Source of the DNA: Actinomycetota bacterium
GTDB taxonomy: Bacteria; Actinomycetota; Actinomycetes; Actinomycetales; Microbacteriaceae
DNA length: 51,473 nt
NCBI GenBank assembly: GCA_018268455.1
Contig: JAFDWM010000296.1
Location: forward strand, 1-51,473
Direction: 5' to 3'
The notes under the pieces were generated by a model. That model saw only the letters and a list, made by a program, of their open reading frames with translations, made no database searches and was not told where the DNA came from. Position 1 is the stretch's first letter; the number at the start of each line of letters is the position of its first letter. The position numbers and the translations under genes are program-made. This document shows, piece after piece, positions 20,923 to 26,177 of the stretch.

Positions 20923-21753
20923 ATGACCGCACAGGACTGGTCGATCCAGGAGATCGCCCGGCTCGCGGGCACGACGAGCCGCACCCTGCGGCACTACGAC
21001 GGCATCGGGCTGCTGCCGCCCACGCGCATCGCGTCGAATGGCTACCGGCACTACGACGAGACCGCGCTGGTGCGCCTGCAGCGCATCCTGCTGCTGCGCG
21101 AGCTCGGGCTCGGGCTGCCGCAGATCGCGGAGGTCGTCGAGACCGATCCGCGACCGCGGCCCGGCGGCCCCGCCGACGCGACTGCGCTCGAGCGGCACCT
21201 CGTGCAGCTGCGCGCGGAGCAGGACAGGCTGGCGCGGCAGATCGCGTCGGTCGAGCACACCATCAACGCACTCAGAGAAGGAGAGGAACTCATGCCAGAG
21301 AACATGTTCGACGGCTTCGACCACACCCAGTACAAGGAGGAGGTGGAGACGCGCTGGGGCGAGAAGGCCTACGCCGACAGCGACCGCTGGTGGCGCGGCC
21401 TCGGCAAGGATGGCCAGGACGCCTGGAAGGCGACGGTCGCCGAGCTGAACGCATCCTGGATCGCGCTCGCCGAGGCGGGAGCGGATCCGGCGTCCGCCGA
21501 GGCCCAGGACGTCGCCCGCCGCCACGTGGGCTGGCTCACCGGGATCCCCGGTACGCCGGCATCCGACGAGCGCGGCGACCGCAAGGGCTACGTGATCGGC
21601 CTCGGCGAGATGTACGTGGCGGATCCGCGCTTCGGCGCGAACTACGCCACATCCGCCGACCGTGCGACTGCGGCCTCGGGCGGCACGGCGGGGACGGCGG
21701 GTGCGGAGTTCGTGCGTGACGCGCTCCGCATCTACGCCGAGGCGAACCTGTAA
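20923..21753 (+). CDS. MerR family regulator, TipA-like
   Basis: A 276-residue TipA-type regulator. The MerR HTH is at about residues 7-75 (SIQEIARLAGTTSRTLRHYD, then LLPPTRIASNGYRHYDE), a coiled dimer helix follows to about residue 118, and a TipAS ligand-binding domain runs from residue 124 (MPENMFDGFDHTQYKEEVET) to the end. GGAAGGAGG precedes the ATG. A second strong Shine-Dalgarno (GGAGAGG) lies seven bases before the in-frame ATG at 21292, exactly at the start of the TipAS domain, so a separate 153-residue ligand-binding protein is probably also made, as known for Streptomyces TipA. It likely senses a small toxic compound. Confidence 0.92.
   Translation: MTAQDWSIQEIARLAGTTSRTLRHYDGIGLLPPTRIASNGYRHYDETALVRLQRILLLRELGLGLPQIAEVVETDPRPRPGGPADATALERHLVQLRAEQDRLARQIASVEHTINALREGEELMPENMFDGFDHTQYKEEVETRWGEKAYADSDRWWRGLGKDGQDAWKATVAELNASWIALAEAGADPASAEAQDVARRHVGWLTGIPGTPASDERGDRKGYVIGLGEMYVADPRFGANYATSADRATAASGGTAGTAGAEFVRDALRIYAEANL
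21284..21294 (+). promoter_or_regulatory. Internal translation start for a TipAS-like short form
   Basis: The run AAGGAGAGGAACTC ends at the in-frame ATG at 21292. Translation from here would give only the C-terminal ligand-binding domain (153 residues). Confidence 0.6.
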
Positions 21754-21855: not shown

Positions 21856-23256
21856 ATGGGCATCTCGCGGCGAACCCTGCTCGTCGGCGCCGGAGCCGGC
21901 GCCGTCGCCGTCGTCCTCGCGGCCTGCACACCCGAGCCCGCACCGACGCGCACTCCCACGCCGACGCCGTCCACGCCGGGGCCGATCCCCGTCGATGCGG
22001 TGCCCGCGCCGACGGCGTTCCTGCGCAGCACCTGGTCGACGGATCCGTACGCCCGGGGCGCGATGAGCTACCTGCCGGTCGGTGCGACACCCCAGCACCG
22101 CGCGGATCTCGCGGCGCCGGTTCAGAATCGGGTGTTCCTGGCGGGGGAGACGACGGACCGGGATCACCCGGGCACAGCTCCCGGAGCCATCGCCGACGGC
22201 CGACGCGCGGCAGCGGCCGTCATCGCCGCGTCGACCGGCGGCGAACGCATCGCCGTGGTCGGCGCCGGGGTTGCGGGGGCGGCCGCGGCGCGCATGCTCG
22301 TGGACGCCGGCCGCACCGTGACCGTGCTCGAGGCGCGCGAGCGCACGGGCGGGCGGATCCAGTCGGTCGTCGACAAGAACTGGCCGATCCCCGCCCAGCT
22401 CGGCGCATGGCTCTCCGCGCCGCACGACACCGATGCGCTCGACGGCGTGCTCGCCGCGCAGGGCATCCACCGCGTCTCGTTCGGCACGCCCACCGGGTGG
22501 TCGAAGGACGGCGCGGCGCCGAGCGTCGACGCAGGCCCGATCACGAAGGCTGTCGCCCAGGCCGCGAACGCGCCCGGCGACATCGCGCTCGACGCCGCAC
22601 TCAAGGCTGCCGGTGCGAATCCGGAAGACCCGGCGCTTGCATCAGCGCTCGCCTGGCTGCAGGCGACGACGGGCGTGGACGCTGCGAAGGCCTCCAGCTG
22701 GTACCCGCCGGTGTTCGCACCCGACGCGCTCGTCGGCGCCGACGGCGATCTCGGAGTGCTCGTCGACGATGCGCTCAAGGGCGTCAAGGTCACGCTCGCC
22801 TCGCCCGTGATCCGGGTGGCCTACGACGCCTCCGGAGTGAGCCTGCGCCTGGGCACGGGGGAGTCGCTGTCGTTCGACCGGGTGATCGTGACCGTGCCGC
22901 TGGGTGCGCTGCAGCACAACGCGATCGAGTTCGCGCCGCCGCTGCCGTTCCCGCACCGCACCGCGATCACGGCACTCGGATCCGGGTATGCGGAGACCGT
23001 CTGGCTGCGTTTCGACAGCGTGTTCTGGAACGTCGACGCCGACCTCTGGCACGTCGTCGGCGGGGACGGTCCGATCCGCACCTGGCTGAACCTGCAGCCG
23101 GTCACCGGCGCACCCGTGCTCGTCGGGCTCGTCGGTGGACCCGAGGCGGAGGCGTTCGCGAAGCTCTCCGACGGCGATGCCGAGGCGACGGCGCGCTCTT
23201 CGCTGCGGTACTTCGTCGCCGCGACGGCGAGCCCGAGTCCGAGCCCGACGCCCTGA
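21856..23256 (+). CDS. Flavin amine oxidase-like Tat lipoprotein, circularly permuted
   Basis: A 466-residue FAD protein. It begins with a twin-arginine motif (SRRTLLVG) and a lipobox (VLAAC, Cys24), then a Pro/Thr linker, so it is probably exported folded and lipid-anchored. The order of motifs is unusual. The segment normally at the C-terminus of flavin amine oxidases (W60..DP, GAMSYLPVG, then FLAGE at 94-98 and DGRRAA at 114-119) comes first. The dinucleotide-binding GxGxxG (136-141), VLEARERTGGRI and the substrate-domain segments follow. The protein ends where a normal family member would enter the W-DP segment. The substrate is unknown; catalysis is inferred from the retained FAD motifs. 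Confidence 0.85.
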   Translation: MGISRRTLLVGAGAGAVAVVLAACTPEPAPTRTPTPTPSTPGPIPVDAVPAPTAFLRSTWSTDPYARGAMSYLPVGATPQHRADLAAPVQNRVFLAGETTDRDHPGTAPGAIADGRRAAAAVIAASTGGERIAVVGAGVAGAAAARMLVDAGRTVTVLEARERTGGRIQSVVDKNWPIPAQLGAWLSAPHDTDALDGVLAAQGIHRVSFGTPTGWSKDGAAPSVDAGPITKAVAQAANAPGDIALDAALKAAGANPEDPALASALAWLQATTGVDAAKASSWYPPVFAPDALVGADGDLGVLVDDALKGVKVTLASPVIRVAYDASGVSLRLGTGESLSFDRVIVTVPLGALQHNAIEFAPPLPFPHRTAITALGSGYAETVWLRFDSVFWNVDADLWHVVGGDGPIRTWLNLQPVTGAPVLVGLVGGPEAEAFAKLSDGDAEATARSSLRYFVAATASPSPSPTP

Positions 23257-23451: not shown

Positions 23452-24120
23452 TCAACGGCGCCGAGCATGCGCTTCGTCGGGCGGCTCGGCCACGCGGGCT
23501 GACGTGTGCAGCCGGCTCAGCCCGATGAGCCCGCAGGCGACCGCCGCGAAGATCAGAAGCGCGATCGCGCTCGTGCCGAACAGCTCGATCGGTCCCGACA
23601 CCTGCCGCGGATCCAGGAAGTAGTACGGGTACCAGCCGACCAGCCCGCCGCGCCAGATCGTGAAGATGCCCCAGACCACGGGGAAGGCCAGCACGTACGG
23701 CACGATCCGCCACGACGCCGTGCGACGGCCCGGACCGAACAGCCACGCGCCGAGCGTCCACACCGGCATGACGAAGTGCAGCACGATGTCCGACCACGGA
23801 ACCGTGATCGGGATCCCGCGCATCCCCGCCTGCCACACGATCAGCGCGAACGCGAGGCCGGCGGTCGTCGTCCAGCTCAGTACGATCGCGCGCGCCGTGG
23901 TGAGCCATCGAGGATCCTCCGGGCTGCGCAGTGCAATGACGCCGGCGATCACGGCGAGCACCACGAACACGATGTTCGACTCGATCGTGAGGTATGCCAG
24001 GAAGTTCTGTCCGGCGATCGTCTGCGAGCTCAGCCCCCAGAACAGGCGAGAGACGAGGGCGACGGCGCAGACGGCCGCGGCGAGAAGGCGCGACCAGCCG
24101 AAGGCCTTCCTCCACCTCAC
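23452..24120 (-). CDS. Pr6Pr family membrane protein
   Basis: I start at GTG 24120 (VRWRKAFGWSRLLAAAVCAV), about 26 bases after the expected transcript start of a TAGACT box at 24153-24158 and with GAGGGG upstream. This gives 222 residues with six predicted helices, including FLAYLTIESNIVFVVLAVIA, IVLHFVMPVWTLGAWLFGPG and YPYYFLDP. These features match the Pr6Pr (FAR-17a/AIG1-like) family of unknown function. The His in the DIVLHFVMP helix and the Thr in YLTIESN are family-typical. Longer readings run into an intergenic repeat and are not credible. Confidence 0.8.
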   Translation of the reverse strand: MRWRKAFGWSRLLAAAVCAVALVSRLFWGLSSQTIAGQNFLAYLTIESNIVFVVLAVIAGVIALRSPEDPRWLTTARAIVLSWTTTAGLAFALIVWQAGMRGIPITVPWSDIVLHFVMPVWTLGAWLFGPGRRTASWRIVPYVLAFPVVWGIFTIWRGGLVGWYPYYFLDPRQVSGPIELFGTSAIALLIFAAVACGLIGLSRLHTSARVAEPPDEAHARRR

Positions 24121-24152
24121 GCGCGCATCGTCCCCTCGGATCCTCTCCGGCG

Positions 24153-24158
24153 AGTCTA
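24153..24158 (-). promoter_or_regulatory. -10 box for the Pr6Pr gene
   Basis: TAGACT on the minus strand, about 33 bases upstream of the GTG at 24120. Confidence 0.4.
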
Positions 24159-24242
24159 CGGAAACCGGTGCGAGCCGTCCGGACGGGCGGCCTGGCAGGG
24201 CGAGCGGTCTCGCCTGGCAGGGGCGCCCGTCCTGTCTGGCAC

Positions 24243-24322
24243 CACACGCTCGCGCGGTCGAAACCTGAGGCCGCGCCTGATAACTGTGCAGCGCTTTCAG
24301 GAATCGACAGCGCGAGCGTGTG
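24243..24322. repeat. Palindromic repeat family 2, copy 1
   Basis: Arms 24243-24268 (CACACGCTCGCGCGGTCGAA start) and 24297-24322 pair with three mismatches over 26 bases. The interior contains GCAGCGC. A second copy with similar arms and interior is at 29561-29639. GCAGCGCTTTC recurs just downstream at about 24337-24347, a partial third copy. A further inverted repeat (GGACGGGC with GCCCGTCC) lies at about 24180-24235. Confidence 0.7.
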
Positions 24323-24356
24323 CGGATCCGCAATCTGCAGCGCTTTCGGCCGGGCA

Positions 24357-24362
24357 TAGGCT
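24357..24362 (+). promoter_or_regulatory. -10 box of leaderless crcB operon promoter
   Basis: TAGGCT is followed by six bases and the GTG at 24369. The leaderless arrangement leaves no room for a fluoride riboswitch. Confidence 0.55.
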
Positions 24363-24368
24363 GACGGC

Positions 24369-24776
24369 GTGAACTCCTCGCTCCCGGCCCGTCTCGTGCT
24401 GGTCACGGCGGGCGGGGCGATCGGCACCGCGGCGCGGATCGGTCTCGGGCTCGCCCTTCCCGCGCCGGCCACGACCGGGATCGGCACGATCCCCTGGGCG
24501 ACGCTCATCGCCAATGTCGTCGGCGCGTTCCTCATCGGGGTGCTGGCCGCGCGCCTGCCCGGATCCAGCTCTCGCCGGCTCTTCCTCGGCACCGGGGTGC
24601 TCGGCGGCTTCACGACCTACAGCTCGTTCGCGGTCGGCTCGGTGACGCTGTGGCATGCGTCGCCCTGGCTCGCCGCCGGGTACGCGATCGGAAGCCTCGT
24701 GGTGGGCCTTGCCGCCGCAGCCCTCGGCCTCGCCATCGCTCGCCCTCGCCGCCCGCACGCGCAGGTGCGCGGATGA
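24369..24776 (+). CDS. crcB: Fluoride channel CrcB, first of a pair
   Basis: A 135-residue Fluc-type fluoride channel subunit with four predicted helices. Family motifs are GGAIGTAARIGL near the start, ATLIANVVGAFLIG, and the pore motif GVLGGFTTYSSFAVG. It overlaps the second crcB by four bases. Actinobacteria often encode two non-identical halves that form a heterodimeric channel protecting the cytoplasm from fluoride. Confidence 0.93.
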   Translation: MNSSLPARLVLVTAGGAIGTAARIGLGLALPAPATTGIGTIPWATLIANVVGAFLIGVLAARLPGSSSRRLFLGTGVLGGFTTYSSFAVGSVTLWHASPWLAAGYAIGSLVVGLAAAALGLAIARPRRPHAQVRG

Positions 24777-25138
24777 CGCCGCTGATCTTCGTGCTGGCCG
24801 CCCTCGCCGGTGGAGTCGGTGCGGCGCTGCGCTACCTCATCGACCGGCTGGTCGCCCGGCTCGCCGGAACCCGCTACCCGTGGGGCGTGCTGGTCATCAA
24901 CGTGACTGGATCCTTCGTCCTCGGACTCGTCAGCGGCGGCTTCCCCGGCGCCGCATTCGTCGTCGGCGCAGGCCTCCTCGGCGGATACACCACGTTCAGC
25001 ACGGCCATGCTCGACACCGTGGCGCTGTGGCGGGACGGATCCTCCCGGGCGGCGGCCTTCAATGCCGTCGGCATGCTGATCCTGGGCGTCGCGGCGGCGG
25101 TCGCCGGCCTCGCGCTCGGCGCCGCGATCGCCGGCTGA
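24773..25138 (+). CDS. crcB: Fluoride channel CrcB, second of a pair
   Basis: A 121-residue partner subunit starting at the ATG of the ATGA overlap (MTPLIFVLAALAGGVGAALRY). It has GVLVINVTGSFVLG and LLGGYTTFSTAMLDT, the counterparts of the motifs in the first subunit. Four helices are predicted. It probably assembles with the upstream product as a dual-topology dimer. Confidence 0.93.
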   Translation: MTPLIFVLAALAGGVGAALRYLIDRLVARLAGTRYPWGVLVINVTGSFVLGLVSGGFPGAAFVVGAGLLGGYTTFSTAMLDTVALWRDGSSRAAAFNAVGMLILGVAAAVAGLALGAAIAG

Positions 25139-25309: not shown

Positions 25310-26071
25310 TCAGTCGCGCACCCGCACGGACAGGCAGGTCACGCAGCCCTCGAGCTTCTCGAACTCGCTGATCGGCGTCTCGAGCACGGTGAGTCCGCGG
25401 TCGCGGAACAGCTGCGCGCTCTGCGGTGCGTCGGACGACATCAGCACCGTGTTCTCGTCGAGCACGACCACGGCCGTGCCGTGCTCCTCCGGCACAGCGA
25501 GGAACTTCGGGTAGATCGAGGGGTCGTCCACGAGCGGCGGGTAGCCGATCACGGTGCCGTCGGGGAGCGCGGTGACGCCGCTCTTCAGGTGCAGCACCCT
25601 GGTGACCTCGACCGGGACTACGGTCCAGCCGCGCGGAGCGAGCAGCGCGTCCATCTGGCGGATGCCCTCGACATTCGTGCGCAGGGTCTGCCCGACATAG
25701 ACGGTGCGGCCGACCTTGAGCACATCGCCGCCGTCGAGAGTCCCCGGGTCTTCGATCGCCGCGAAGGGGATCCCCGCCCGCTCCAGGGCCGTGCGGGTCG
25801 TGTCGATCTCGCCGCGTCGTGAATCGGCGCCGGGGCGGGTCAGCAGCGCGAGGTCGCCGAACATGACCACGGTGTCCTCGACGAACACCCCGTCGGCGTG
25901 CGCGTCGTCGGGCTCGATGTCGATCACGTCCCAGCCGAGCGACCGGTACACGTCGACATACGCCTCCCACTGGCGCTGCGCGAGCTGCGGATCCACGGGC
26001 ACCCGCTCGAGGTGGGTGAGCTCGCCTTCTGCGAGGCGGGGCGAGGGGCGACGGACGAGCAGGCGGGACAT
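25310..26071 (-). CDS. Dimethylarginine dimethylaminohydrolase-like (amidinotransferase superfamily)
   Basis: A 253-residue guanidino-group-modifying enzyme. Catalytic features are the Glu-Asp pair in FVEDTVVMF, the GTLDGGDVL motif, the His in VLHLKSGVTALPDG and the C-terminal nucleophilic Cys in EGCVTCLSV. DDAHs hydrolyse methylated arginines to citrulline and amines; other members deiminate arginine, so the exact substrate is open. ATG at 26071 is chosen as a TACCCT box ends six bases before it; an upstream ATG at 26164 would place coding sequence across this promoter. Confidence 0.88.
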   Translation of the reverse strand: MSRLLVRRPSPRLAEGELTHLERVPVDPQLAQRQWEAYVDVYRSLGWDVIDIEPDDAHADGVFVEDTVVMFGDLALLTRPGADSRRGEIDTTRTALERAGIPFAAIEDPGTLDGGDVLKVGRTVYVGQTLRTNVEGIRQMDALLAPRGWTVVPVEVTRVLHLKSGVTALPDGTVIGYPPLVDDPSIYPKFLAVPEEHGTAVVVLDENTVLMSSDAPQSAQLFRDRGLTVLETPISEFEKLEGCVTCLSVRVRD

Positions 26072-26077
26072 GTTCCC

Positions 26078-26083
26078 AGGGTA
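26078..26083 (-). promoter_or_regulatory. -10 box of leaderless DDAH promoter
   Basis: TACCCT on the minus strand, then six bases and the ATG at 26071. Confidence 0.5.
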
Positions 26084-26177
26084 GACGCGCGCCAGGGCGG
26101 CCGAAACGGGGGAGCGCGCGTGACGCTGTTCGTCTGCGCTCCACGTCGCCGACATCGGATGCAATGCTCCGGGTGTC

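Follow-up and report, generated by a model that had tools for sequence, protein, structure and literature searches.

The window, the whole stretch of 51,473 nucleotides of actinomycetal DNA analysed here, carries a gene for a lipoprotein with a circularly permuted flavin amine oxidase fold, which faces a convergent gene for a membrane protein of the Pr6Pr family. The features of this locus are the following:

21856..23256, plus strand: circularly permuted flavin amine oxidase-fold lipoprotein, 466 residues (open reading frame with ATG start; Pfam, phmmer and profile matches)
21856..21927, plus strand: Tat-like signal (R5, R6) and lipobox ending in C24 (conservation among permuted proteins)
21928..21993, plus strand: Pro/Thr-rich linker, residues 25-46 (sequence; low model confidence)
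21994..22230, plus strand: former C-terminal segment (W60, D63, AGE 96-98), residues 47-125 (LSD2 and profile alignments)
22243..23226, plus strand: FAD head and substrate domain, residues 130-457
22261..22278, plus strand: GAGVAG dinucleotide-binding motif, residues 136-141 (G136, G138 and G141 in 75/75 permuted proteins)
22996..22998, plus strand: T381, at the position of the LSD1/PAO catalytic lysine (LSD2 alignment; K in 39/39 conventional relatives)
23452..24357, minus strand: Pr6Pr family membrane protein, convergent neighbour, true start probably further in (NF038065, 92.2 bits, cut-off 30)

The protein matches the Pfam Amino_oxidase model (PF01593) with 176 bits against a cut-off of 19.8, in three stretches, and its matches to HpnE and other NCBIfam models lie far below their cut-offs. 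The motifs reported in the preliminary description are all found where it placed them (W60, D63-P64, SYLPVG at 71-76, FLAGE at 94-98, DGRRAA at 114-119, GAGVAG at 136-141 and LEARERTGG at 158-166), and the reversed order it described is upheld by alignments of the whole protein. A phmmer comparison with PDB sequences aligned residues 48-123 with 699-774 of LSD2 (4gu0), 130-169 with 337-376 and 296-438 with 531-679, placing the tail before the head. Similarly, on a profile of 39 conventional-order relatives (length 428), residues 47-126 occupy positions 343-422 and the remainder forms two stretches running from position 2 to 345; the head, substrate domain and C-terminal FAD segment do not follow each other in the order conventional for PF01593. 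The same profile reveals inverted segment order in all 74 permuted proteins tested, and each of them scores higher for its best domain once the front piece is placed last (median gain 90 bits, minimum 1.8). In the window protein the relocated piece joins the substrate domain (213 versus 113 bits), with the head remaining a separate stretch. In all 82 proteins measured, the front piece begins at a median profile position of 343 (305-363) and the body ends at a median of 339 (302-365), with a joint of 0-9 residues (median 4) between front piece and head; these positions and the short joint indicate one complete domain opened at a single place, which is the boundary between the substrate domain and the last FAD segment, as had been proposed. 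Each permuted reading frame has a single tail match, and no intermediate with a tail at both ends was seen among them. The protein is thus a circularly permuted form of the LSD1/polyamine-oxidase-type FAD fold, passed on by inheritance.

AlphaFold supplied with seven close sequences gave a pLDDT of 34.5, and a usable model was obtained once partial sequences of conventional relatives, taken from viral contigs, had been added. The confidence of this model is 84-94 in blocks over residues 71-160, apart from a drop to 72 at 101-110, and falls below 50 over residues 1-40. In agreement with the earlier suggestion that the fold could survive the permutation, the predicted model retains the three-dimensional amine-oxidase fold of PF01593. 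Its structural alignments span residues from about 123 onward, and packing of the front piece at the FAD site is a prediction from homology and model confidence.

Homologues with the same order are both close and distant, and their distribution could be mapped across genus, family, order and phylum. The permuted gene is present in 59 of the 149 genomes of the window's genus, with front piece and body both matched in 57 of these and the gene cut by a contig end in the others (G103, G108); four of six named close relatives are from Microbacterium (72-77% identity). At E 1e-30 the family sample yielded matches in 100 of 299 genomes and 30 of 85 genera, each match extending from residue 1-4 to beyond residue 250. 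Fourteen of 198 genomes of the order sample match, including three from two other families, all three permuted. In the phylum sample 9 of 396 genomes match, and four of these lie beyond the class of the window. The two classes to which those four belong contain matches at E 1e-30 in 16 of 198 genomes in one and 12 of 199 in the other, many of them conventional. The survey covered this one phylum together with plasmid and viral collections; of 72,556 plasmid records 8 match, none covering more than 80% of the query. The reading frames in 96 loci comprise 80 permuted, 11 conventional and 8 undecided cases. By contrast, the conventional order is found in all 20 additional amine oxidases that were chosen from weaker matches in the genus. 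Conservation counts (n=75) exclude L070, L071 and L085, which repeat other loci, the fragments L072 and L095, and two identical rows; residue counts, the FastTree analysis and the order test (n=74) further exclude L074, a fragmentary sequence that lies at the start of a contig and has R in the lysine column. As side observations, in one genus (g432; L088, L090, L091) an amine oxidase of conventional order is encoded close to the permuted gene, on the other strand, and a 4147-base contig of the viral collection, possibly chimeric, encodes a 638-residue reading frame (L133) with an amine oxidase in frame with another domain, which we take to resemble an AAA/DnaC-like ATPase.

Phylogenetic trees bear on how often the permutation arose. 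In a FastTree phylogeny 66 of the 74 permuted rows form one clade (0.998), and the other 8 lie elsewhere among conventional rows. We then have two careful trees, the first with 29 of the 74 permuted and 31 of the 39 conventional rows, the second with those 60 minus 7 permuted and 8 conventional rows plus 6 added ones; five of the 8 conventional rows left out were on long branches, including the pair L079/L084, which lies beside the main permuted clade in the first tree. The careful trees show 4 changes between orders, and a single origin is recovered in 0% of 200 bootstrap trees; the changes forced by well-supported branches number at least 1 in the first and 2 in the second, and a single permuted clade is not rejected in either (p-AU 0.159 and 0.169). 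The trees therefore suggest, but do not establish, multiple origins, while the shared cut favors one. The permutation itself is likely to have arisen when the gene of a conventional Tat-lipoprotein amine oxidase was duplicated and then partly deleted.

The signal proposed in the preliminary description stands as far as the twin arginine and lipobox are concerned, as R5 is conserved in 74, R6 in 73 and C24 in 70 of 75 aligned permuted proteins. It does not reach the Pfam TAT_signal cut-off (14.8 against 22.7 bits), and the Tat assignment hence rests on the conserved motif. From these motifs the protein would be exported in folded form by the Tat system and held by a lipid anchor at the outer membrane face. 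When 33 conventional relatives were scanned for such motifs, a Tat-lipoprotein-like signal was flagged in four (L075, L092, L093 and L149, the last of which looks spurious); as some conventional relatives possess such a signal, export may predate the permutation.

In most of the Microbacteriaceae carriers sampled, Pr6Pr is encoded next to the permuted gene. In the genus sample 58 genomes have a Pr6Pr match of 179 bits or more, every one of them among the 59 carriers of the permuted gene, and the next match below is a partial one of 109 bits; in the remaining carrier (G108) the permuted gene is at a contig end. Weaker Pr6Pr paralogues are widespread (123 of 149 genus genomes at E 1e-10). The two genes are convergent in 58 of 58 genus genomes, with a median of 51 bases between match ends but 1.6-1.9 kb in three pairs (Fisher's p 4.9e-41, kinship ignored), and a convergent pair is seen in 93 of the 100 family-sample carriers. 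The oxidase gene in G712 and the Pr6Pr gene in G584 lie at most 140 bases from a contig start, so the pair could be split there. Among the family-sample matches no Pr6Pr was found for G742, G823, G786, G578 and G754; the visible downstream side lacks it in G823, G578 and G754 (L169-L171) and is cut by the contig start in G742 (L168). All 10 loci compared from the family outside the genus carry the pair, with the other flanking genes mostly unshared. Outside the family the pair was seen in none of the examined loci, and any Pr6Pr is found in 1 of 10 genomes. Seven family genomes have a Pr6Pr match of at least 115 bits and no permuted gene at E 1e-30 (G547, G569, G629 and G820, corresponding to L164-L167, and G690, G739 and G783); six belong to genus g243, and L164-L167 show no oxidase piece nearby. 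We infer that the oxidase and Pr6Pr work together; convergent genes are not co-transcribed, so the neighborhood could also be linkage without function.

Several other connections were considered and set aside. Residues T79 and H149 of Pr6Pr are present in 80 of 80 rows, some loci being repeated, and prompted a comparison with the human AIG1/ADTRP hydrolases; searches for such a relationship gave only a weak Pfam match to DDE_Tnp_1_assoc (E 0.14) and none in the PDB. For a defence system PADLOC returned a desaturase-like match over oxidase residues 131-171 and nothing for Pr6Pr. An upstream TipA-like regulator and a glycogen phosphorylase were rejected as partners, since among 24 loci compared they were seen only in the window itself and in one or three near loci of Microbacterium. 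The former is a MerR-type gene just upstream (20923-21753, plus strand, PF07739), found also in L038 and in no other compared locus. Elsewhere in the window are a dimethylargininase gene (25310-26164, minus strand, NF045660, 404 bits), common to three near Microbacterium loci, and two overlapping small reading frames (24369-25138, plus strand), which we take to resemble halves of a CrcB/FluC fluoride channel.

We term coupled those permuted proteins with Pr6Pr in the locus, or 1.9 kb away in the case of L015 (n=63). Their FAD-binding apparatus is invariant: GAGxxG, E159, GGR at 165-167 and G97-E98 are found in 63 of 63, and the GxGxxG, E, GGR and AGE motifs likewise in 11 of 11 other permuted members. 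W410 is also a tryptophan in 63 of 63. The catalytic center is different. T381 of the window protein aligns with the LSD2 residue that we assume to be the catalytic lysine, and the window protein thus lacks the lysine of the lysine-water-flavin motif typical of LSD1/PAO-type enzymes. In the column of LSD1 Lys661 the coupled members have T in 50, K in 5 (L057, L058, L062, L064, L068), V in 4, A in 2, and L and S in 1 each. All 11 other permuted proteins and all 39 conventional relatives have K. So do seven more permuted proteins for which no adjacent Pr6Pr was seen (L168 being cut by a contig end), so that the lysine is present in all 18 counted permuted proteins lacking a visible Pr6Pr neighbor. 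The tryptophan of the (S)WIHG motif follows the same trend, being present in 36 of 39 conventional relatives and 11 of 11 other permuted proteins versus 8 of 63 coupled ones. H104 aligns with Tyr761 of LSD1, and as this column varies in conventional relatives as well, we draw nothing from it. In a quick tree of 43 rows (SH-aLRT only), partner state and lysine state change once each and the coupled clade has four of its five lysine-bearing members at its base, from which the order of events would be permutation, then Pr6Pr pairing, then lysine loss. With one change each, the association is a single historical event and not independent support, and the five coupled members that keep the lysine indicate that pairing does not require its loss. 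Together, the Pr6Pr neighbor and the loss of the catalytic lysine make the plain label "amine oxidase" doubtful for the window protein.

On balance, we lean slightly towards a permuted FAD-fold protein that is exported by Tat, lipid-anchored and partnered with Pr6Pr, with its chemistry moved away from O2-dependent amine oxidation. The last FAD-binding segment comes first, joined by a linker of about 4 residues to the GxGxxG head, and the flavoprotein would cross the membrane folded and be tethered on its outer face, where, together with Pr6Pr, it might act on a membrane-near substrate or exchange electrons with a membrane component. Replacement of the lysine in most of the clade alongside invariant FAD motifs suggests that the flavin is retained and that the chemistry has shifted; proposals for the substrate and electron acceptor are guesses. 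A narrower version, a membrane-tethered lysine-less flavin subunit acting with Pr6Pr on a non-O2 acceptor, with a permutation that may have arisen more than once, is more tentative.

It is also conceivable, though we think it unlikely, that the protein is an ordinary, active extracytoplasmic amine oxidase that happens to be permuted, with changes at residue 381 tolerated and Pr6Pr an unrelated neighbor. The intact fold and FAD motifs would fit this, as would the lysine in the 18 permuted members without a visible Pr6Pr and in five coupled ones; its retention in 39 of 39 conventional relatives against 5 of 63 coupled proteins and the parallel loss of the (S)WIHG tryptophan speak against it. Moreover, the passages of PMC3184146 that deal with Lys661 describe its role and call the lysine-water-flavin motif pivotal in LSD1. 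An equally unlikely reading is a pseudoenzyme that keeps FAD as a mere structural leftover, with the lipoprotein serving Pr6Pr as a binding or scaffold subunit. A remodelled active site, conserved cofactor motifs and a conserved neighbor are compatible with it, but the invariance of W410 and of the FAD motifs in the coupled members suggests continued chemistry. Neither for an assembly artefact, an objection that the preliminary description had itself raised, nor for a chance motif order was any supporting point found. Both are exceedingly improbable and are refuted by the identical order of all 74 proteins, which come from different genomes, close and distant, and by the presence of the gene in 59 of 149 genus genomes.

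The permuted order affects a large flavoenzyme fold of two domains and occurs naturally in several families and classes of one phylum. Such a fold offers a clean test of how far an FAD site tolerates new termini, and the conventional, permuted lysine-bearing and permuted lysine-less members form a comparison set, while the undescribed Pr6Pr membrane family gains a testable candidate redox partner. In the open full-text literature searched, a scope that leaves out most subscription papers and preprints, the word Pr6Pr does not occur and no permuted amine oxidases appear among the matches listed; literature on Tat lipoprotein amine oxidases likewise had nothing on permuted ones among the 8 of 28 matches listed. 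Among known systems, the neighbor at 23452-24357 belongs with the Pr6Pr family NF038065. The oxidase itself is closest in kind to LSD1/LSD2 (KDM1) and maize polyamine oxidase (PF01593), and differs from them in its permuted order and lipoprotein signal. Where LSD1 and PAO have the catalytic lysine it has T381, and where LSD1 has Tyr761 it has H104. L075, L092 and L093, from other classes of the phylum, resemble it in having a twin arginine and lipobox before the amine oxidase, and share the lysine with the lysine-bearing relatives; unlike the window protein, they retain the conventional order.
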